Below, piece after piece: positions 3,332 to 56,084 of a DNA stretch of 64,000 nt. Under the pieces are notes generated by a model, which was not told the DNA's origin, did not search any database, and worked only from the letters and a program-made list of their open reading frames with translations. This DNA is from Bacteroidota bacterium (GTDB lineage: Bacteria > Bacteroidota > Bacteroidia > Flavobacteriales > Schleiferiaceae). Position 1 is the stretch's first letter; each line of letters opens with the position of its first letter. A program made the position numbers and the translations under genes. The stretch lies in assembly GCA_024742495.1 (NCBI GenBank), contig JANSYJ010000003.1:434001-498000 (forward strand), in the 5' to 3' direction.

Positions 3332-6300
3332 TTATGCTTGGATATGCTTTAAAATTGTAGGATCCTTAATCCTTTTATCCCGAGCTAAAAGGAGCACTTT
3401 CGCCAATAATTCGGCTGTTTTAGGATCGTCATCTACAAAGGGTAAAAACATTCGGCCTCGATGTTGCGCAGGCACGGCAATAATGCTCATCTCTGGCCCG
3501 GCTATAACATGACAATTTGTGCTGCCGAGATGTACCGAATATTCGGCTAAATCTCCTTTAATGAGCACATGATTTCCCTTAACATCTAAGTTTTTCAATT
3601 TAAAAAGTCGAGCGGTTTCCTTTACAATGCTTGCTCTAAGCTCAATGCTCGACAGGCTAGCCTCAGGATCCACCTCGCCCACGTGAGCCACACTAACCAC
3701 CAAATCGAGATCGCGCATAATCTCCGAAAAGATTCGACCTTCAATGTCTTTTAGGTCAACGCGTTCCCCTTTGCTAAGCGAGCGAATCTCTAAACCCTCA
3801 ATTTGAGGAGCTTCTACTTCCGCAGCGGTAAACCAATCTGCCCTGGCCAGCATCGTAGCCACTAAGCGCTCTTGATGCATCACCTTTTGCAAGCCACTAT
3901 ATTCTTCAATAGTCCACCCTCGAGTTTTTAATAAGGCCACTGCTTTACGAGGCTGTATTTGATGTCCAGAATAGCGCCGAGAAAAATTAGCTTCCTTCAG
4001 TTCATCATCGGTAGGAGTGTAGAGCTCTCTAAAAATTTGCTTAAAAGGCTGAACCAGCTTATTATCAAAGCAGTACTGCTGAAACCCCGACCATTTTCCA
4101 GATTGGAATAAATCATAACAATGGGCAATTTTTAAATCACCATTAAGGCTAATCGTTTTCCCAGCATGATCCTGTAGCGATCCATTTCTCCAAAATCCTG
4201 GTTCTTGATCCCCAATAAATAGGATCTTATCTAACATTGGCTTCAATACCGGATGTTGCATGAGGTTTTCCAGTTCCTCGGCTTTAAATCTGTCGCCGCG
4301 AACCATAGCCTCTTCCAAGCTTTTTCGGCTACGTCGGTATTGCTCGCGCAAGCCTTTCACCATTTCCTTAAGCTTTAGCACTTCTTTATTCTTGCGCTCC
4401 TTAGCCGGAATCGACTTTAGCTTTTTATCATCGCGATAAGCCTTTACCGACGCTTTACCATGCTCATCAATTTCTAAAGCAATGCGTAAATCATCAATTT
4501 GTATTTGAGATGCGCTTTCCAAAACTTCGCGTGTCTCCTTACTTTCCATGGCCCATTCGAGACGCAGGGGATCAGGATATCCCGCTGTTCGTGCTAAATT
4601 CTCAAAAGCTACTTTTACAGCAATGGCCTCACTAGCTTGCCTTTGCGATCCATGTTGCTTACTCTCTTTTTTAAAATCTTGTAAAAATTTATAGCGTCTT
4701 AAAGTATCGGCCTCCGGATTATTCTTGTTGAGGGGAATTACCCCATAAACTCTTAAATAGTCTTGATTTCGCGTTTCCTTAATCTTGTTTAAAACAGCCG
4801 TAATTTTGGTGTTTCCGGTAATCACATCAGCGTAAAGCTTAGCCCTGCTGTGGCCATTACCACTAGAGATGTATTTAGCAGCTCGGTACAGTTTTTCCCA
4901 ATTGGCTTTGCCTAAAGATTTATAGGTTCTTTGAAACCAGTCGATATCCACCGCCCCAATATTAAAGTCAGCCATTTCTACCGAGGAATACTTCGCAATT
5001 TCACCCTCATTGCTGTTCTCATATTCATTTTTTGCATGAGCGTGTAGCCACCATACTCCAGACTCCATATTATTCCATCCTAAATAGATAGAGATGAGCT
5101 TAAGCCATTGCGGCGCATAAACGGCGGCTTCTACCAAACGCTTCTCGCTGATTTTGCCGGCGCTAATTTTATCATTAAAAACTGCTTGTTCTTCTTCAGG
5201 ATCGGGGTGACAGCTTTTAAGTAAAGCACTTAATACCTCTTTTTTAGTGTATTCATGATTGCCCCAAGAGTAGATATAACCACGGTTTAGGGTTTCCCTT
5301 CCCAATCCGTTTAAAATGGCAATAAAGTTTGCACTGCCGTAGATGCGATTGAGGTTTTGAGCCAAGTGAGTGAGGGGAGTAGAAGTCTCACCACGTATTA
5401 ACTCTACTTCAAGAATGCGATCTCTCACCTTATCCAGCATGGCTACCACAAAGGGATATTGCTCCTTTAAATCTTCTTGATTACCAACTGGTTCACTGGT
5501 AAGTCGTTTAATGGCATCTGGCATCATTATGCGCCAATAAAGGCTATCCTCATTGATCAATTTTAGCTCAAAGGCCTTTAAATAATCATCAAGCTCGGGT
5601 AAATACCTTTGCTGTAGTTCGTGCTTTTTGCTTGCGCTGAGATAGGACCATGAAACTAAATTCCAATACGTATTAAACTGCGAATGATTCATCTTATAAC
5701 GATGATTGCGAAGCACGTTTAGAGGTCCAGATACCATTTTTGCATCCCGCCAGGTATAATAATTCGTGTAATATTGATTATTATCAATTATATAGTGTCC
5801 TGCTTCAGCCAGACTAATTGAGCCGTAAAGAAGTGTTATATAGTCGCCAAGGAAGTCAATCGCCTCTTTAAGCGGGTATTTCTTCTCTAAAGCTCTGATA
5901 ATCCACGGTATAGGGTTTTGCCAATGTATGCCTTCTAGCTTAGGGATTTTCGGCACATAAATTTTACGGTCCATGGCCTTAAAATCAGCGGCTTTTAGAT
6001 TTTGATGATGGACCTCAAAGGCACCAAAAGAGTTGATGCTTATGAGCAATAGATCATTAGCCTGTAAACCAGATTTCAGGTACCAATTCTCCCAAACTTC
6101 ATGCATTGGAATTTTGGCGAATGCTTCCTCTGCAGTGTCAAAGGGGTTTCCGCCTTGGAAAGGCTGTAAAGACTGACCCAGTAGCTCGCTTACCATTTGC
6201 CCATTGTGATCCTTATAGCTAATCTCCTCTTTTTGATGGGCTCGAAAGAGCTCTCCTAAATCCTCTAAAGCATCATTAATTTTTTCGGCTTCCATGCTTA

Positions 6301-8332
6301 ATCCGGGCATCGAAGCTTGGCTGTATTTTTTTAAAACGCCACTTTGCTCGTTTTGCAAACGCGGACCCTCAGGATGTACCTTTTGGGGATCAAATATTTT
6401 ATAACCATTCTTAGCGCTATAGTCTTCTTTATCCTCATTTACATATTCAAAACCTTCAAGCACTAATGCCTCTCGGGCTGAAGGTTGATGACCATCCAAA
6501 AGCTTTTGTAAGTATTCATTTACAAAGTCTTTCTCACCCAAGTCTTGTAACTTCAAGAGTAAATCGAGTCCTGCTAATCGTTGCTCTTCACTCTTGGAAC
6601 TTAATAGTCTTTGAGCACTCGAGCACATAGTATCTACACCCGATTTTTGAATAAGCTCCAACATCGATTTACGGAACTCAGCTGATTTTCTTTTTAGGAG
6701 TGGCTCTAATTCTTCAATTCTAGACGCACTGAGCCTGGCATCTTTAAGGGCCGTCATAGCGCGTTGCCGAATATCTGAGGATCGATCACTAACCGCATCA
6801 AAAGCAAAATCAATTTGCCAGTCTTTTGGTCTAGTGTTTAATATTGGTTTTTGATCGTATGGACCATATCCCTTTAATACTCTAGCTGCCAACAGTGATC
6901 GTATTTCCACACTTAGATCATTGTAATAGGGAAGGACGCGTTTTAAATCCTCCTCTTTTTCTAAGTCTAATAAGTTTAGCATCAATCTATGGAGCGAAGA
7001 GCGATCTACGGTAAAATCGAGCCACTCAAAAATCCGTGAGGGAATTTTCTTTTTCTTAACGGGCATTCGGTCCTGTAAGGCTTCAAGCCTCTCAAAGAAC
7101 TTATGAGCTTCCTTTCGCTTTAGGAGCTTTAAAAAATTAGGGTCATCTAATAGTTCACATGCAAATTGTATAGTAATTGGGTCTTCACTCTCTAGGCAGC
7201 GCTGGGCATACTTTATGGAGAAAGTCGAAAGGCCAACTTGTTGAACGAAGTAAAGGGCAAGACTTCTTTTCTCGGCATCTTTGTTTATTAAATTATCTAT
7301 AAGCGGCATGCAATCAGCCACTTCCATTACTCCCTGCGACCAAAGTGCCATGTAAACCTCGGCATTGTCTTTCGACTCAATGGCTTCGGGAATAAGCTGC
7401 GGGTTATTTAAATATTGATCGGCTAATTCTAAGAAACGGTTCACTGTTTTTTCCCGTGCGGCGTCCCAGCCAAATCCTGCCCATACATCTATAGCTCGCA
7501 CTACAGAAGAGAATCGACTAAGCTTATGATCTAAAATCAGCTTAATCATATACTTAAGAGCTCCGAATGAAGTCTCATCCAAGCATTCTAGGATTATTTG
7601 TCGCAAACTTTCTTGCCTTTGCGCTCCCAGTAATAGTTTTCCAATGGCCTCCCAGCATTCGGGGTCATCACAAAGCAGCATGGCCTTAATTAATGCTCTA
7701 CTAGGTTTAGCGATTGGATGTCTGCCTAAAACTGCATCAAGACATAAGCCTCGAATTTTTGCATCGCCATTAGTAATGCTGCCTGCAATTACAAAAGCTA
7801 ATGCTGAAGCATTGGTGTTATTGGCATAGATAATTTTCTCCTCCAAAGAAAGGTCGTATTGCTCTTCTTGAAGAAGTTGTATTAAAAAGTTAATCTGTCT
7901 ACAGAAGTATATCTGCTCCAGTCCTTTAGAGCGAAATGATCGACGGTTATAGGAATCCTGATACATTAAGCTTCGTATCATTTTGAAGCCACTTTGAATG
8001 CCTAGAATCATGTCATCCTTAAAGAAAAATTTAAGAATCTCTTGGCGACCATCATTTAAGAAATCGACATTTCTTCCCGCATTATATAAAGCTCGAAAAC
8101 GAGCTTCATTTTGGTTAACTGAAGGAATATAGTAGTTGTGGCTATTATATTTTTCCTCTCGATCGGGATGCTCATTTAGCAGATGTAAGGCAAGACCAGC
8201 ATTGGTACGGCTTATTTTAAAGCCTAAAATCTTTCCAAATGTGGCTATAGGATTGTTGTAAATGCGCAGCAGCTTTTGGGCTTTCACTTTAATGTAGCCA
8301 TTACGCAGTCGAGATTGGAGAATATCACTCAT
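3332..8332 (-). CDS. Giant DUF4132-domain protein (MolR/YehI-like)
   Basis: This 1666-residue protein is the largest in the window. The N-terminal ~650 residues are mostly short amphipathic helices with repeated hydrophobic spacing, consistent with HEAT-like repeats. The region around residues 1240-1380 carries the DUF4132 pattern: LRLEWAM, an LKxIPAKxRK linker, a basic helix (LREQYRRSRKSLEEAM) and MQHPVLKPMLDKILF. The C-terminus (FLPFVDDDPKTAELLAKVLL, then IKDPTIL) matches the conserved tail of these proteins. The family includes E. coli MolR/YehI and has no established biochemical role. There is no signal peptide, so it is probably cytoplasmic. A 135-residue protein is encoded nine bases upstream and is probably co-transcribed. 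Confidence 0.8.
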   Translation of the reverse strand: MSDILQSRLRNGYIKVKAQKLLRIYNNPIATFGKILGFKISRTNAGLALHLLNEHPDREEKYNSHNYYIPSVNQNEARFRALYNAGRNVDFLNDGRQEILKFFFKDDMILGIQSGFKMIRSLMYQDSYNRRSFRSKGLEQIYFCRQINFLIQLLQEEQYDLSLEEKIIYANNTNASALAFVIAGSITNGDAKIRGLCLDAVLGRHPIAKPSRALIKAMLLCDDPECWEAIGKLLLGAQRQESLRQIILECLDETSFGALKYMIKLILDHKLSRFSSVVRAIDVWAGFGWDAAREKTVNRFLELADQYLNNPQLIPEAIESKDNAEVYMALWSQGVMEVADCMPLIDNLINKDAEKRSLALYFVQQVGLSTFSIKYAQRCLESEDPITIQFACELLDDPNFLKLLKRKEAHKFFERLEALQDRMPVKKKKIPSRIFEWLDFTVDRSSLHRLMLNLLDLEKEEDLKRVLPYYNDLSVEIRSLLAARVLKGYGPYDQKPILNTRPKDWQIDFAFDAVSDRSSDIRQRAMTALKDARLSASRIEELEPLLKRKSAEFRKSMLELIQKSGVDTMCSSAQRLLSSKSEEQRLAGLDLLLKLQDLGEKDFVNEYLQKLLDGHQPSAREALVLEGFEYVNEDKEDYSAKNGYKIFDPQKVHPEGPRLQNEQSGVLKKYSQASMPGLSMEAEKINDALEDLGELFRAHQKEEISYKDHNGQMVSELLGQSLQPFQGGNPFDTAEEAFAKIPMHEVWENWYLKSGLQANDLLLISINSFGAFEVHHQNLKAADFKAMDRKIYVPKIPKLEGIHWQNPIPWIIRALEKKYPLKEAIDFLGDYITLLYGSISLAEAGHYIIDNNQYYTNYYTWRDAKMVSGPLNVLRNHRYKMNHSQFNTYWNLVSWSYLSASKKHELQQRYLPELDDYLKAFELKLINEDSLYWRIMMPDAIKRLTSEPVGNQEDLKEQYPFVVAMLDKVRDRILEVELIRGETSTPLTHLAQNLNRIYGSANFIAILNGLGRETLNRGYIYSWGNHEYTKKEVLSALLKSCHPDPEEEQAVFNDKISAGKISEKRLVEAAVYAPQWLKLISIYLGWNNMESGVWWLHAHAKNEYENSNEGEIAKYSSVEMADFNIGAVDIDWFQRTYKSLGKANWEKLYRAAKYISSGNGHSRAKLYADVITGNTKITAVLNKIKETRNQDYLRVYGVIPLNKNNPEADTLRRYKFLQDFKKESKQHGSQRQASEAIAVKVAFENLARTAGYPDPLRLEWAMESKETREVLESASQIQIDDLRIALEIDEHGKASVKAYRDDKKLKSIPAKERKNKEVLKLKEMVKGLREQYRRSRKSLEEAMVRGDRFKAEELENLMQHPVLKPMLDKILFIGDQEPGFWRNGSLQDHAGKTISLNGDLKIAHCYDLFQSGKWSGFQQYCFDNKLVQPFKQIFRELYTPTDDELKEANFSRRYSGHQIQPRKAVALLKTRGWTIEEYSGLQKVMHQERLVATMLARADWFTAAEVEAPQIEGLEIRSLSKGERVDLKDIEGRIFSEIMRDLDLVVSVAHVGEVDPEASLSSIELRASIVKETARLFKLKNLDVKGNHVLIKGDLAEYSVHLGSTNCHVIAGPEMSIIAVPAQHRGRMFLPFVDDDPKTAELLAKVLLLARDKRIKDPTILKHIQA

Positions 8333-50261: not shown

Positions 50262-50370
50262 TATAAGGTAATATTTGAAATCTCTGCAATACGAGCTAAG
50301 CGAGTATTTAGCATAATATCAGCCCCGAATGCTTTCGGGACGACAGATATTATGTTAAGGAGATTTCGAA
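50262..50370 (+). repeat. Structured direct repeat, copy 1 (left side of the island)
   Basis: This ~109-bp element shares most of its sequence with 55970-56084, including 35 of 37 bases from AATACGAGC to CATAATATCAG. It folds with an outer stem GAAATCTC/GAGATTTC, a small AATAC/GTATT-type hairpin, and a long hairpin CATAATATC/GATATTATG. The tip of this hairpin is closed by CCCGAA/TTCGGG. The tip differs from copy 2 but pairs in both, as expected for a conserved structure. Confidence 0.75.
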
Positions 50371-50793: not shown

Positions 50794-51411
50794 TCAATTA
50801 CCCTCAAAATCCTTAAGGCAAATATTGTTACCATGCATGATCAAGGCTTTTCTGTTATCAACTAAAGAAGCTGCTACCAGTGGGTTAATCTCATACATTT
50901 TGTCAATTTCATCGTTATATTTTTTTTTCATTGCATTTAAAGCAGTAAGAGTATCTGACCCATCAAAAAATTGAATTAGACCATGATTGGCACACTCAAC
51001 AAAAGGTGGAAAAAAGTTTGTCCAGATGAATACAGGCTTAGAATAGCCAATAAAACATTGGCATTGATTAACGCCGACTAAATCTCTACCAAGTTCCTTT
51101 CCTGAGCTACAGGAAAATGTGTAAACAAAGCCTCCTTTAAAGGCACTTCCATTCTTCATAATAGACACATATTCTACATCAGCCGCTTTTAGAAGTGAGT
51201 TATCATCTCCATGTGAATAAGCCCCAAAAATAAACTGAGGAAGATGGTTAATGCATAAGTATATAGCTAAATCATTCAATTGACTACTCCCAAGTTCTGT
51301 AATAGAGATATCCTTAGACTTAAAATATTGGGCTATATGGGACTTGCACTCAAGAAAGAAATCTCCTAATGATTTGTCTTTCTCATCATATGCTATTAGA
51401 ATCTTCGCCAT
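50794..51411 (-). CDS. Candidate caspase/CHAT-like cysteine protease (island effector)
   Basis: The protein has 205 residues. It starts with a Rossmann-like strand (AKILIAYDEKDKSLGDFFLE). It then shows a catalytic His pattern, FIFGAYSHGDDNSLL (His67 before Gly68), and a Cys pattern, FVYTFSCSSGKELGRDLV (Cys101), 34 residues later. This matches the HG...[S/A]C-x-[S/T]G layout of caspase, CHAT and gingipain-like peptidases. The strand after Cys101, CQCFIGYSKPVFI, fits the fold. It has no signal peptide. It is the last gene of the five-gene operon; the start overlaps the receiver-gene stop by one base (TAATG). The protease assignment is inferred from the motif pair alone. Confidence 0.5.
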   Translation of the reverse strand: MAKILIAYDEKDKSLGDFFLECKSHIAQYFKSKDISITELGSSQLNDLAIYLCINHLPQFIFGAYSHGDDNSLLKAADVEYVSIMKNGSAFKGGFVYTFSCSSGKELGRDLVGVNQCQCFIGYSKPVFIWTNFFPPFVECANHGLIQFFDGSDTLTALNAMKKKYNDEIDKMYEINPLVAASLVDNRKALIMHGNNICLKDFEGN

Positions 51412-52007
51412 TACAATTCCTTTTTGCCCCTCAATAGTAAATCAATGGTTAGAGCATTAAGCTTGGCTGCAAATTCTTTACCCACCTCAGTCTGACTTCT
51501 AATTTCGTAAAGGATATTGTTCAAGGAGTATGATTTTCCTTCCGTAGATATGTATATCGGCTTATCCTTGTCTTCATTACTCTCTATGATCCAATCTTCT
51601 ATTGTATTATCTAAACTTGTTTTAAGTTGAATATACGCCTTGTCTATGATCTGCATAGATTCCTCAATAGTGGAATCTTTACTAAGAAACCCAAAAGCAT
51701 GATTATTAATAAAGTCGCTAAACTCCTCTTCCGTCTGATTTATACCACTCCAAAGAATAACTGGGATAAGTGCAGAAGATTTATATATTTCATCCAGTAA
51801 TTTATGTCCATTAGATTTATCACTTTCAGAAAACTCAATATCAAGCAGCACAATTAAATTTAAGCTCAAATTTTCCTTAATAAATTCTAATCCCTCATTG
51901 GGATTATTAAAGAAGTGAACCTTATCATATTTATCTTCAATACTATAAAGCAATGAATGATCTTCAATATCCTCACTATCATCTAATACAACAAAATTAA
52001 CTTTCAT
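51411..52007 (-). CDS. Stand-alone receiver-domain (REC) protein
   Basis: The protein has 198 residues. Residues 1-130 form a CheY-like receiver with the complete active site: acidic pair Asp9-Asp10 (VVLDDSED), phospho-acceptor Asp56 (LIVLLDIEF), Ser87 (VILWSG), and Lys110 (GFLSKDS). There is no DNA-binding output domain. The ~65-residue tail (GKSYSLNNILYEIRSQTEVG, then KEFAAKLNALTIDLLLRGKK) may bind a partner. It lies five bases after the GHKL kinase-like gene and overlaps the caspase-like gene by one base. A phosphorelay from the GHKL protein to this one is a natural inference. Confidence 0.8.
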   Translation of the reverse strand: MKVNFVVLDDSEDIEDHSLLYSIEDKYDKVHFFNNPNEGLEFIKENLSLNLIVLLDIEFSESDKSNGHKLLDEIYKSSALIPVILWSGINQTEEEFSDFINNHAFGFLSKDSTIEESMQIIDKAYIQLKTSLDNTIEDWIIESNEDKDKPIYISTEGKSYSLNNILYEIRSQTEVGKEFAAKLNALTIDLLLRGKKEL

Positions 52008-52012
52008 AATTC

Positions 52013-54136
52013 TTATTTTTTAAATGGTAGTTTAATCCTAAATGTTGCACCATTAGGTTGCAACTCATTCTCCGCCACTTCTATTTCACCTTGCATTGCT
52101 TCAACTCTTGTCTTGACCATGTACAATCCCATTCCTGCACCTCCCTCCTCTGCAGTTTTGGTGAAAAAAATATCAAACACCCTATATTTATCTTCTTCTT
52201 TTATACCAATGCCATTATCAGAGAATAGAATAGTCACATCATTTGAGGTAGTTATAGAGCTACATTTTATCACCTTATCCTCCATTCCTTTTAAGGCTTT
52301 AATAGAGTTTGAGATCAAATTATCAAAAATGTCCTCTATAGCTTTCCTGTTGTAGTTTAAAATTAAATCTTCTTTAATATCCACAATAGTAGATATACCT
52401 TCTTCAACAAATCGATCTTGATAGATATCATAAAATAAATTAAGTACCAACTCTCGTAGATTTATTTCCTCTAAATCAGTATCCGACTTAGCATATTTAA
52501 GCATAAAATCCACACCTTTTCGAAGCTTTAACATCTCTTTATAAATATTCTTTGCTATTTTCAAGAACCTATGCTCTAATTCTGGATTTGGGTAATTTTT
52601 ATGGAAGTACTCTGCACTAGTTAATATATGACCAATTGTATGCTTAGTCATGTGGGAAAACATAGCTGCATAGGTTTGAAGTGAAACCAAACTGAAAAAT
52701 AAATTTTCTTTTTGCTTGCTTTCTTTTTCCAATTTAGCGTAATCCTTAATACTCTTGTTCACGCTTCCCTGTATCTTCCCTAGATTTACCTCAATGTTTC
52801 TTAATTTTTCTTTGACTTGTGGTGAGGCATTCTTCTTAATGGAGGCTATGTCTTTCTTGAGAGACTTCAAATCCTTGTTTGCACCACCTAAATTGGATTT
52901 TGTAACTTCTCTATCAACTTTTCGGACATATTTATAATATGATTCTAACTGTACAATTTGCTCAATAATCAATTTCCTTAATTCTTCCCAAGCTTCATTG
53001 TCTACGAATCCTTGACGATTAGTGGACTCCACAATATTTGGATTTTGTTCATCTGATATCTCGACATACCCTAACAAGTCCCTACTGCCAAATCTTTCGA
53101 AAAAGCCTGAATACCTTCTTTTATCTAAGCCTAGAATGTCCTTTTGCTTTTCTTGATTTGCCACATATTCTGCAAATGGTGTTGTAATAATACCATCACG
53201 ATAAATTTTTATTCCATCAATATCCGTTTTGAAGTGTTTCTTGTACTTGGTCTTAGCTTCTTGATCAAAATAATAAATGTGAAGTTTTAGAAGACCGCAT
53301 GGCCGAGGAGGAACATTTATAACCTTTAGACCCCCTTTATCATGCTGCAAAATTTCTTGAGTATTATTTAACTTATTGTATGATAAGTCAATCTTTTTTG
53401 TCGCAAAATCTATCAGCTGTAGTTTTACTTTTCTATCCTCAAAGCCTTCGTACGGTGCTTTGATTTTGATATTGAATGGGTATTGAGGCTGAACCTCTGA
53501 ATTTGGAGAAACTAGTTTTGATAATTCTTTATAGGCTCTGTTTATATCATCTTTACTCCAAACTTCATTAACAGATGAGATTTCAAGAATAGTACCCTGC
53601 TGATCTTCTGAACCCTCTTCGAACCAATATCTATTTTCTACATCAGTAAAGAATGGTTTCTTTTCTTCGAAGTCCAATTTAAGTTGGTTATCCTCAAGCC
53701 TAGAGTAGTATGACCAATCTGTTTCTAAACAAATTAATTCCGTGGCACCCTTTTTCTTTGTCCTTAGAACTAGTTTATCTCCCAATTTATCCACTGCGAA
53801 GCGCCCAACACCTTTTTTTCCTGAAACCTTTCTATAAAACGGTGCTGGTGATAATCGTTCTCTCCTTTTACTGCTAGTACCAATAACCATCCACTTGTTT
53901 TGTATATCGGAAAATTTCATTCCAACACCATCATCTTTGATGATAATCTTCGAGTTATTGGTTAATGGATTAATGTCTTGGAATTCAACAGTCACGTTCC
54001 GAGCATTGGCATCATATGCATTTTTAACCAATTCAAAAAGAGCGGTTATTCTATCGGTGATAAGCTCTCTTCCTAGTAAGCGATACGCACTAACATCAAA
54101 ATTAAATGTTATAGTTTTTTCCTCGCTTCTTACCAT
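52013..54136 (-). CDS. Dual-GHKL ATPase / histidine kinase-like protein
   Basis: The protein has 707 residues and two GHKL ATPase modules. The N-terminal module (1-~250) is MORC/MutL/Hsp90-like: N-box ELVKNAYDANA (Glu35, Asn39), DDGVGM at 68-73 and GKKGVGRFA at 106-114. The middle is coiled-coil with charged residues (~400-480). A His-rich motif, MFSHMTKHTIGHIL (His495, 499, 503), precedes a histidine kinase-type HATPase with DNLISNSIKAL (Asn606, Asn610), SDNGIGIKEED at 639-649 and GGAGMGLYMV at 665-674. There is no membrane segment, so it would sense an intracellular signal. The gene lies one base from the methyltransferase gene and five from the receiver gene. Confidence 0.85.
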   Translation of the reverse strand: MVRSEEKTITFNFDVSAYRLLGRELITDRITALFELVKNAYDANARNVTVEFQDINPLTNNSKIIIKDDGVGMKFSDIQNKWMVIGTSSKRRERLSPAPFYRKVSGKKGVGRFAVDKLGDKLVLRTKKKGATELICLETDWSYYSRLEDNQLKLDFEEKKPFFTDVENRYWFEEGSEDQQGTILEISSVNEVWSKDDINRAYKELSKLVSPNSEVQPQYPFNIKIKAPYEGFEDRKVKLQLIDFATKKIDLSYNKLNNTQEILQHDKGGLKVINVPPRPCGLLKLHIYYFDQEAKTKYKKHFKTDIDGIKIYRDGIITTPFAEYVANQEKQKDILGLDKRRYSGFFERFGSRDLLGYVEISDEQNPNIVESTNRQGFVDNEAWEELRKLIIEQIVQLESYYKYVRKVDREVTKSNLGGANKDLKSLKKDIASIKKNASPQVKEKLRNIEVNLGKIQGSVNKSIKDYAKLEKESKQKENLFFSLVSLQTYAAMFSHMTKHTIGHILTSAEYFHKNYPNPELEHRFLKIAKNIYKEMLKLRKGVDFMLKYAKSDTDLEEINLRELVLNLFYDIYQDRFVEEGISTIVDIKEDLILNYNRKAIEDIFDNLISNSIKALKGMEDKVIKCSSITTSNDVTILFSDNGIGIKEEDKYRVFDIFFTKTAEEGGAGMGLYMVKTRVEAMQGEIEVAENELQPNGATFRIKLPFKK

Positions 54137-54137
54137 C

Positions 54138-55259
54138 TTAGCTCATTTCTTTGATTTGATTAAATACCGCTTTAGCCAATAGCGGTGGTACAGCATTACC
54201 TATTTGCTGTTGCATGTACATTAATGTGCCTTGAAAAATAAAGTCATCAGGGAAACTTTGAAGTCGAGCAGCTTCCCTAACTGATAGACCTCTATTCTCA
54301 TATGGATGTATTAACATGTTTTTCCGATAGTTTGAGATAACTACAGAAGGTCTGTTAGAATTTAATCTCTTGTAAATCCCTGAGTGACAATTATTTTTTT
54401 CTTTATAGTTGGTCATCAGTTCATCGGGTATCGCCCTCCAATTTTGTCCCTGACCTATATATGAATATCTCTCGATTACATAATCCTTATTTCTAGACAC
54501 ATAGTTTTGCTTGGAAGTGGTTGATTTTCGTCGCATTGAATCTGCAAAGTGATTGTTAGCTTCGAACTTATAAGGAAGGTCATCAATTAAATCCCCATTT
54601 TCTAAACTTGGTAAGTCTTCAATTGCATTTGCCACAGTCAAGCTATAATTAAATTTCTCTGGAAACCTGTATTTCACTCCTCGCCTATTTCCCACCATGA
54701 AAAAACGGTTTCTATCCTGCGGAACTCCATAATTAGATGCGTTCAAAACGTCATAGCTCACAGTATAGCCCAATTTCTCTAATCGACTTTTTAGGGTTTG
54801 CACCACCCTCCCTTTTTGAAAACTTTTGAATCCCTCTACATTTTCAAAAACACACCATTCAGGCTCTAGGGTGGCAATAAATCTCAGAAACTCTTCAAAC
54901 AGGCTGTTTTTTTCATTCATAGAGTTTCTTGTAACAGTATTGGAAAGAGAAAACCCCTGACAAGGAGGGCCGCCAAATAATACGAATGGAGGGGTATTGG
55001 CAAGCTTTTCTGGCTTGACATTCCTAATGTCCTCAACTATTACAGATGATGTTTTATGATTTTGTTTAAACGTATCAGCAGCATATTTGTCATTTTCTAC
55101 AGCAAAGGAGATATTGATACCGGCCATCTCCGCACCGAGACTCATACCACCGGCTCCACTGAATATGTCACAACCATGGATTGAAGCTGAAGGTTGATCT
55201 ACTACTCTCCTATTATTTTCTTTGGATAGCAAATTTATATCTTGGACTAACGTGCTCAT
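54138..55259 (-). CDS. C5-cytosine DNA methyltransferase
   Basis: The protein has 373 residues. All core motifs are visible: I (DIFSGAGGMS, 31-40), IV with catalytic Cys100 (GGPPCQGFS), VI (ENVEG, 139-143), VIII (QDRNR, 181-185), and IX/X (REAARLQSFPD, QQIGNAVPPLLAKAV). The target-recognition region lies at about residues 190-320; the recognised sequence cannot be read. Unusually, the operon has no restriction endonuclease gene. It lies four bases after the XRE gene and one base before the dual-GHKL gene. Confidence 0.93.
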   Translation of the reverse strand: MSTLVQDINLLSKENNRRVVDQPSASIHGCDIFSGAGGMSLGAEMAGINISFAVENDKYAADTFKQNHKTSSVIVEDIRNVKPEKLANTPPFVLFGGPPCQGFSLSNTVTRNSMNEKNSLFEEFLRFIATLEPEWCVFENVEGFKSFQKGRVVQTLKSRLEKLGYTVSYDVLNASNYGVPQDRNRFFMVGNRRGVKYRFPEKFNYSLTVANAIEDLPSLENGDLIDDLPYKFEANNHFADSMRRKSTTSKQNYVSRNKDYVIERYSYIGQGQNWRAIPDELMTNYKEKNNCHSGIYKRLNSNRPSVVISNYRKNMLIHPYENRGLSVREAARLQSFPDDFIFQGTLMYMQQQIGNAVPPLLAKAVFNQIKEMS

Positions 55260-55263
55260 ATAC

Positions 55264-55482
55264 TTACTGCTCTATGAGTTTTAAATTTTCACACACTTCA
55301 TTCAGCAGCTCACAAGGATCAGCCGCAATTGCTTTTGCTATTAAATAAAGTTCATCAACTCTCAATTGAGTTTTTGAGTTATTAGCTAATTCGCTTGATG
55401 GTGTTTCACTAATGCCTGTTTTTCGAGCAACATCAGAACGATTAACTGATTTTTTAGAAAGATATACCCCTAGCGCTGTCAT
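55264..55482 (-). CDS. Small XRE-type regulator of the island operon
   Basis: The protein has 72 residues forming a single Cro/CI helix-turn-helix (GVYLSKKSVNRSDVARKTGI, then DELYLIAKAIAADPCELLNE). It is the first gene of the operon, four bases before the methyltransferase. Its position is like that of controller proteins in restriction-modification systems, which delay effector expression, but it could also be a repressor of the operon. Confidence 0.75.
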   Translation of the reverse strand: MTALGVYLSKKSVNRSDVARKTGISETPSSELANNSKTQLRVDELYLIAKAIAADPCELLNEVCENLKLIEQ

Positions 55483-55969: not shown

Positions 55970-56084
55970 TATAAGGTAAATTTAGGAGTCTCCGTAATAC
56001 GAGCAAAGTGAGTATTTAGCATAATATCAGATATAACGGCCGTAAGCCTTTTATCGGCTTATATTATGTTACGGAGATTTCGAA
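55970..56084 (+). repeat. Structured direct repeat, copy 2 (right side of the island)
   Basis: This ~115-bp element is a direct copy of 50262-50370. Here the outer stem is TCTCCGTAA (55989-55997) with TTACGGAGA (56069-56077). The small hairpin is AATAC/GTATT and the long hairpin CATAATAT (56020-56027)/ATATTATG (56061-56068), with a TAAGCC/GGCTTA tip. Changes from copy 1 keep the pairing. Confidence 0.75.

Follow-up and report, generated by a model that had tools for sequence, protein, structure and literature searches.

A five-gene cassette around a double-ATPase protein

What does a bacterial protein do that carries two complete ATPase modules, one resembling MORC proteins and the other resembling histidine kinases? 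The question is raised by a gene in a 64,000-nucleotide stretch of DNA (the window) from a Bacteroidota bacterium of the family Schleiferiaceae (GenBank assembly GCA_024742495.1, contig JANSYJ010000003.1, positions 434,001 to 498,000). An initial annotation of this DNA had noticed the two modules and suggested that the N-terminal part clamps DNA while the C-terminal part signals, giving a DNA-triggered cytoplasmic kinase. The observation of two ATPases was confirmed; the interpretation was partly supported, and the finding is larger than was reported. The initial annotation named no output, and the gene that it missed, after the receiver gene, is predicted from its modeled structure to encode a caspase-fold peptidase. 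We propose, with a probability of roughly 55%, that the locus is a horizontally acquired immune (abortive-infection) cassette resembling restriction-modification (R-M) systems, in which the double-ATPase protein would be the sensor-transmitter and the restriction arm would be a caspase-like protease reached through a two-component-like relay. The genes and their parts are as follows, in the direction of transcription.

55264..55482, minus strand: Cro/C1-type helix-turn-helix (HTH) protein of 72 aa (HTH_26, E = 1.5e-7), candidate controller of the R-M C-protein type
54138..55259, minus strand: C5-cytosine DNA methyltransferase of 373 aa (PF00145, E = 3.8e-74)
52013..54136, minus strand: ATPase-kinase of 707 aa, a GHKL-histidine kinase protein made up of a MORC/Hsp90-like ATPase, a coiled coil with helices like those of dimerization and histidine phosphotransfer (DHp) domains, and a histidine kinase catalytic domain
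52922..54103, minus strand: N-terminal ATPase and transducer of that protein, residues 12 to 405 (HATPase_c_3; fold matches to MORC3 and Hsc82; BbrUII/HgiDII model)
52487..52822, minus strand: DHp-like hairpin, long helix 439-514 and helix 518-550 (predicted model and structure alignment)
52652..52654, minus strand: codon for the conserved histidine of the H-box, H495
52016..52480, minus strand: C-terminal catalytic ATPase domain, residues 553 to 707 (Pfam; match to ThkA)
51411..52007, minus strand: receiver of 198 aa (Response_reg) with a C-terminal tail common to protease-paired receivers; Asp56 codon at 51840-51842
50794..51411, minus strand: predicted caspase/CHAT-fold peptidase of 205 aa; His67 codon at 51211-51213, Cys101 codon at 51109-51111

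The last four genes lie back to back. No restriction endonuclease gene was found in the cassette: open reading frames (ORFs) of at least 100 aa between the two repeat elements that bracket it (described below) are the four listed genes of that size and one untested 101-aa ORF.

Domains and predicted structure of the ATPase-kinase

A single ORF runs exactly from 52013 to 54136, and Pfam, an AlphaFold2 (AF2) model and fold matches agree that its product combines a MORC-like ATPase with a histidine kinase module, as had been claimed. Pfam matched HATPase_c_3 to residues 31-157 (E = 1.1e-24) and HATPase_c to residues 597-706 (E = 3.2e-26), and both domains were present in one protein in all 47 rows of an alignment of relatives (A5). 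The model for BbrUII/HgiDII-family type II restriction enzymes (NF050001) matched residues 11-237 (E = 4.4e-20). We then scored conservation in an alignment of the window protein with 87 relatives, from which one partial sequence (L105) had been dropped. In the N-terminal ATPase, N39, D68, G70, K108, and G109 were found in 88/88 rows; in the C-terminal ATPase, N610, G668, and G670 were likewise invariant, and N606, D640, G642, G644, and G666 were kept in 85 to 87 rows. Because these residues are so widely conserved, both nucleotide pockets look intact, in agreement with the claim that both motif sets are complete.

The AF2 model, built from 47 aligned sequences, had a mean predicted local distance difference test score (pLDDT) of 82.5 and a predicted template modeling score (pTM) of 0.63. 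It lays out the protein as ATPase and transducer, followed by the long helix (439-514), the second helix (518-550), and the catalytic domain. Residues 12-405 of the predicted model aligned with MORC3 (Z = 21.1; root mean square deviation [rmsd], 3.9; 301 residues aligned), Hsc82 (Z = 19.8), and Hsp90 proteins; a Foldseek search also listed MORC2 with DNA and SMCHD1 among its matches. Residues ~484-707 matched histidine kinases (HK853, Z of ~20 to 21), and the C-terminal part matched the ThkA catalytic domain (3a0t; Z = 22.1; rmsd, 1.4; 147 residues aligned). The fold matches of the predicted model and the adjacent C5 methyltransferase gene thus place a GHKL ATPase with its transducer in an R-M context. 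We rejected a conventional membrane-sensing kinase: in Pfam searches, the N-terminal ATPase was the sole sensor domain, and the receiver showed no domain for binding DNA.

The gene after the receiver is predicted to encode a caspase-fold protease

The AF2 model of the 205-aa protein was of high confidence (pLDDT, 90.8; pTM, 0.88). With this model, the top Foldseek match was the activated SAVED-CHAT protein 8tl0 (E = 7.5e-8; TM-score, 0.63 on the query), followed by separase and caspases. VIA-align gave Z scores of 17.0 for both gingipain R and SAVED-CHAT, 15.6 for separase, 13.8 for legumain, and 13.6 for MALT1. Clan CD enzymes carry a His/Cys dyad at the ends of particular strands of this fold; in the model, His67 stands at the end of strand 60-67 and Cys101 follows strand 95-100. 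His67-Gly68 and Cys101 were kept in 12/12 homologues, as were two further glycines (G122 and G194), and H67, G68, C101, G122, and G194 were all invariant in an alignment of nine. Judging from the model, it is nearly certain that the protein has the clan CD (caspase/CHAT) peptidase fold and likely that it is a proteolytic enzyme.

The protease is linked to the receiver, the ATPase-kinase, and the methyltransferase

The four closest loci, from Algibacter (L042), Bacteroides (L043, with a 51% identical ATPase-kinase), Spirochaetaceae (L044), and Thiomicrorhabdus (L045), have an orthologue of the protease gene at this position. With a profile, more-distant homologues were located after the receiver gene in L046, L047 (Bacillota), and L059; another was recognized by eye on a Stenotrophomonas plasmid (L038), and three more (L130, L131, and L132) were obtained by searching genomes of the window's class with a profile. 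In total, 11 complete loci from four phyla have the ATPase-kinase, receiver, protease, and C5 methyltransferase genes. The methyltransferase gene was present in the fetched stretch in all 11, although in L045 it is on the other strand; L130, whose contig starts inside the ATPase-kinase gene, was left out of these counts.

Since most of these loci had been found through the ATPase-kinase, the search of 395 genomes with the protease profile served as an independent test of linkage. Besides the window's own genome, all three accepted matches (in G475, G655, and G230) lay directly after receiver and ATPase-kinase genes; a fourth, weak match (in G546) did not. In that sample of the class, 5/395 genomes reached an E value of ≤0.01, four of which were accepted, the own genome included; in a sample of the phylum, 3/390 genomes reached ≤0.001, with two accepted, again including the own genome. 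The protease family is therefore rare and sporadic. A tblastn search of plasmids with the window protease gave no match. Viral contigs scanned with the five closest ATPase-kinases yielded three relatives, none with a match to the protease profile, so that little was found in favor of a phage-borne origin and we rejected it.

The receiver tail tracks the protease

The receiver matched PF00072 (E = 8.1e-8). The aspartate proposed as its phosphoacceptor is indeed residue 56, and it is Asp in 42/42 receivers compared, drawn from four groups. L097, in which the receiver region is split over two ORFs, was left out of this count and of the alignment (A8). Beyond the receiver domain lies a tail of ~72 residues. 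We built leave-one-out profiles of this tail, and the left-out protease-paired receiver was ranked first in 11/12 cases, with E values from 1.2e-23 to 2.2e-6. As background, we took 75 proteins encoded directly after the ATPase-kinase in other loci, most of them receivers; none reached an E value better than 0.01. The tail thus behaves as a domain tied to the protease.

Related loci appear to pair the same chassis with other outputs

We kept the best 80 of 572 confirmed relatives; the proportions below describe that sample. HNH-type loci were recognized by a motif pattern in any of the three genes that come first downstream, protease-type loci by profile, and HEPN-like loci by motif. Seven of the 80 kept genome loci were of the protease type. 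In a quick tree of 88 rows and a careful tree of 40 rows, from which two long branches (L039 and L123) had been dropped, the window protein fell in the 30-row side of a supported branch. This clade contains 11 protease-type members, 17 with an R-x4-H motif at the C-terminal end of the receiver region, and 2 in which the receiver is bare.

The Arg and His of the R-x4-H tail were invariant in the 16 that were aligned. The strict form, RN-x3-H, occurred in 16/17 of these HEPN-type receivers versus 0/63 of the first downstream genes of other loci, whereas the loose form is not specific, being found somewhere in 23/63. Pfam gave weak matches only, to HEPN_Swt1 in 2/16 and to HepT-like in 2/16, so that the HEPN identity is based on the motif. 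HEPN-like receivers, encoded by the first gene downstream of the ATPase-kinase, stand in C5 methyltransferase operons in L052, L057, L117, L066, L113, L110, L082, L065, L116, L099, L095, L068, L049, L079, L114, and L122. By type, a C5 methyltransferase gene accompanied 17/17 HEPN, 0/12 HNH, and 21/47 remaining loci. In one of the bare-receiver operons (L053, 5919-6998), a HpaII endonuclease gene (E = 1.9e-138) lies between the methyltransferase and ATPase-kinase genes; L077 has a candidate HpaII gene with identical coordinates and length (5919-6998).

On the careful tree, the protease label needs three changes, the starred branches force at least two, and a single change sufficed in 0% of 200 bootstrap trees. 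Since the protease, HEPN-like, and HpaII types share one clade with forced changes of label, a single ATPase-kinase/receiver chassis appears to have been combined in turn with a protease, a probable RNase, or a restriction enzyme as its output.

A separate version of the system, of the HNH type, was seen on a viral contig (L123, 6270-11854), where the ATPase-kinase, receiver, and HNH-like genes are accompanied by what looks by eye like an N6-methyltransferase gene.

The cassette occupies a variable site

The cassette is bracketed by two direct copies, 74% identical, of an element of ~110 nt, and a search of the genome found no other copies.

50262..50370, no strand assigned: copy 1 of the ~110-nt element, bounding the cassette on its 3′ side
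55970..56084, no strand assigned: copy 2 of the ~110-nt element, bounding the cassette on its 5′ side

As a single strand, copy 1 folded better than 200/200 shuffled sequences (z = -3.9); copy 2 was less clear (z = -1.9; 10/200 shuffles were as good). The element is possibly a site at which an unknown mobile element attaches or takes up cassettes.

We read the corresponding site in six relatives. In the congener G732, the flanking genes are contiguous and the cassette is absent. In a second congener (G734), the site holds Gabija (L158, 1649-8972; GajA, E = 1.4e-293; GajB, E = 7e-235), and in a third (G730) it holds a gene matching a dCTPase model (E = 4.9e-113) with a ThiF-type gene (L159, 1974-7011). 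In G733, the tetratricopeptide repeat (TPR) gene is joined to one of the genes found farther along the window. Copies of the element are present at the site in G738 and in G735, whose contig ends nearby; three G738 genes that were scanned matched no family. The cassette thus sits at a variable site that is shared with known defense genes. The element also occurs near the orthologous TPR gene in relatives (L163, 6961-7052 and 10183-10308; L162, 1611-2034; L139, 1-108), with more than one copy in G735 and in G738.

A proposed mechanism

Under the reading that we favor, the C5 methyltransferase would mark self DNA at one site, and expression of the other genes is probably held back by the HTH protein until this has been completed. 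A dimer of the N-terminal MORC-like ATPase would clamp DNA and react to unmarked sites; the N-terminal module of BbrUII/HgiDII-type restriction enzymes, which is related to it, may act likewise. ATP-driven rearrangement of this part would switch the C-terminal histidine kinase module, which would change the state of the receiver, most simply by phosphotransfer from H495 to Asp56. The receiver tail would then release or activate the caspase-like protease, and cleavage of host proteins would stop both cell and phage. That the kinase is triggered by DNA, as first suggested, is something that we infer; the C5 methyltransferase, the N-terminal match to BbrUII/HgiDII enzymes, and the HpaII gene in a sister operon strengthen the case. 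We put the boldest form of this reading a little short of even odds: instead of being cut, nonself (unmethylated) DNA would be sensed by a MORC-type DNA clamp that signals, by way of a two-component relay, to a caspase, so that the bacterium undergoes programmed death on unmarked DNA, with caspase, HEPN-like, and true restriction enzyme outputs being interchangeable.

Several observations weigh against the immune-cassette reading. All of its support is computational and bears on the domains, the predicted fold, the conserved residues, gene linkage, the switching of outputs, and the placement at a variable site with defense genes; sensing of DNA or of its methylation, phosphotransfer, contact between receiver and protease, cell killing, and protection from phage are inferred. 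The 205-aa protein matched no Pfam, PADLOC, or NCBIfam family at an E value of ≤1; its profile gave unrelated best matches among PDB sequences, with CED-3 at only 0.22; and its homologues lack a convincing family match, one distant homologue reaching Peptidase_C25 at 0.12. Two weak matches to the protease profile were not counted: one in G546 (E = 0.009, one stop), where the region (L133) shows no such system, and one in G117 (E = 7e-5, four stops; L135, G117:C10:2215-2427). The protease-paired receiver of L132 was missed by the tail profile, and the usual β5 Lys looks lost in L045, L130, and L131 from sequences read by eye. The genes downstream in L044 look by eye like McrBC, so that restriction genes are not missing from all loci. 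No conserved substrate gene was seen by eye in the loci read, and known defense genes were present in only two of the six relatives read at the insertion site. A further difficulty concerns the chemistry of the relay and is taken up below.

The G117 match (L135) is a possible pseudogene.

Phosphotransfer and the alternatives to the proposed mechanism

The initial annotation had proposed His495/499 as the phosphorylation site and had held that homologues consistently lacking a histidine at the H-box would speak against it. The H495 column was His in 88/88 rows, and in 47/47 rows of a separate alignment, which favors the proposal. H499 and H503, in turn, are shared, among the five closest sequences, only by the window protein and its Algibacter orthologue; we rejected H499 as a phosphorylation site since it is not conserved among these five. 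In canonical HisKA kinases, an acidic residue next to the H-box His serves as a base. The N, G1, and G2 boxes are present in the window protein, but the residue after H495 is Met496. This position was acidic in 1/30 rows of the clade (0/11 protease type, 1/17 HEPN type, and 0/2 bare-receiver/HpaII type) versus 55/58 other rows. Since the acid is absent in 29/30 clade members, ordinary autophosphorylation is not assured and phosphotransfer may not occur. Of the idea of a signaling kinase, a histidine kinase module with an adjacent receiver thus stands, but we regard kinase activity of the 707-aa protein as unproven; members of the clade may use a different route to phosphorylation or may lack the activity altogether.

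The strongest alternative follows from this. The cassette would be the same but would work without phosphotransfer: the kinase module would be an ATP-driven conformational switch, the receiver would be a pseudo-receiver or adaptor, and the DNA clamp would move the receiver-protease complex mechanically. The loss of the acid, kept in all but 3/58 rows elsewhere, speaks for this, as does the acid pair, which is altered in 3/12 of the receivers that are paired with a protease (L130 and L131 have His instead of Asp, and L132 has Glu). However, H495, Asp56, and, largely, the N and G boxes are intact, and the conservation of both phosphorylation sites is hard to explain without chemistry. We consider this alternative unlikely, while taking it seriously.

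A second alternative would make the cassette an addiction module, in which the protease punishes loss of the methyltransferase (postsegregational killing) and phage defense is secondary. The methyltransferase in all 11 complete loci and the candidate controller gene fit this proposal, as does L009 (1489-3358; G375:C4), where HTH and C5 methyltransferase genes are kept beside what remains of the ATPase (197 aa, 69% identical to the window protein over residues 8-191), as expected if the toxic part is lost first. The window cassette, however, is apparently chromosomal and shares its site with Gabija. We judge addiction as the main role to be distinctly improbable, and the two roles remain compatible. 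The rest of the system was absent from the 3.5 kb fetched for L009, which is perhaps a decayed copy.

Third, the caspase-fold protein could be inactive or regulatory, cleaving its own receiver or the methyltransferase (restriction alleviation) rather than host targets. Some clan CD proteins are pseudo-proteases, and the lack of a visible substrate gene is consistent with such a role. Against this, both His and Cys are kept in 12/12 homologues, and relatives pair the receiver with other output genes or domains, which makes this option very doubtful.

Least likely of all is ordinary two-component signaling, in which a cytoplasmic kinase would sense nucleotide levels and regulate genes while the methyltransferase and protease are unrelated: the domain order is that of a soluble kinase with a receiver, and the authors of a 2021 study speculated on nucleoside triphosphate sensing (PMC8011034), but Pfam found no DNA-binding domain on the receiver, the four genes are linked across phyla with 3/3 independent protease matches beside a receiver and an ATPase-kinase, and the cassette is bracketed by elements and absent from a congener.

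Relation to known systems

If the immune-cassette reading is true, methylation-based discrimination of self from nonself, two-component signaling, and caspase-type proteolysis would be wired together, and we know of no report that joins the three. The role that GHKL ATPases, which in bacteria are the relatives of MORC silencers, play in R-M loci would become testable, and a function would be assigned to genes that stand next to methyltransferases and are annotated as "sensor histidine kinase" or hypothetical protein. Our literature searches, which reached few subscription papers and preprints, listed no paper whose title or opening of the abstract describes an operon of methyltransferase, ATPase-kinase, receiver, and caspase or its receiver-HEPN version.

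Each known system resembles the cassette in part. SAVED-CHAT and other caspase-like immune proteases share the predicted peptidase fold and the use of a protease as immune output, but the window cassette has no SAVED or cyclic nucleotide sensor, and its partner is a receiver; to our knowledge, these proteases have no link to DNA methylation. Detocs, the defensive two-component system, uses kinase-receiver logic in phage defense, as proposed here; its effector, carried by the receiver, is an enzyme that cleaves ATP, and it is not known to include a methyltransferase or MORC ATPase. Type II R-M systems have the methyltransferase gene in common with the cassette, in which no restriction endonuclease gene was found. 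BbrUII/HgiDII enzymes share the N-terminal ATPase region, but the match in the window protein ends at residue 237, is followed by a kinase module, and scores 71.8 bits versus a whole-protein cutoff of 550.

The plan of two ATPases with a receiver and a C5 methyltransferase is not new. In the 2021 study, proteins with HATPase_c_3, HEF_HK, and HATPase_c are described with Response_reg_2 receivers near genes for C5 methyltransferases, Vsr, and HNH proteins (Bellieny-Rabelo 2021, PMC8011034); its main text contains no word beginning with caspase, peptidase, protease, CHAT, abortive, or phage. Like that system, ours has HATPase_c_3, His-bearing helices, and HATPase_c in one soluble protein, with an adjacent receiver and a C5 methyltransferase nearby; unlike it, the window has a PF00072 receiver, a caspase-fold output, and no HEF_HK match. 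HEF_HK (PF19191) did not match the window protein at an E value of ≤1 and matched 5/47 rows of A5 at ≤0.01. Among 62 first downstream genes, which include at least one nonreceiver gene, 2 matched PF19192 (Response_reg_2) and 31 matched PF00072. By its own Pfam models, membership in the HEF_HK/Response_reg_2 system was rejected.

The paraMORC ATPases of R-M operons are likewise GHKL plus S5-type ATPases encoded with DNA methyltransferases, for which DNA looping was proposed (Iyer 2008, PMC2292703). The partners described there include helicases, nucleases, and TIR proteins, and words beginning with receiver or caspase are absent from that paper. A HEPN domain fused to paraMORC in R-M loci (PMC3710099) similarly couples a GHKL ATPase to a toxin domain; the HEPN domain there is on the ATPase, whereas the sister clade here has the HEPN-like tail on the receiver.

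The Campylobacter coli conjugative plasmid pTet also encodes a full-length relative, accompanied by a response regulator and a C5 methyltransferase (L041, 6959-11389), and 43 Campylobacter plasmid records contained some match.

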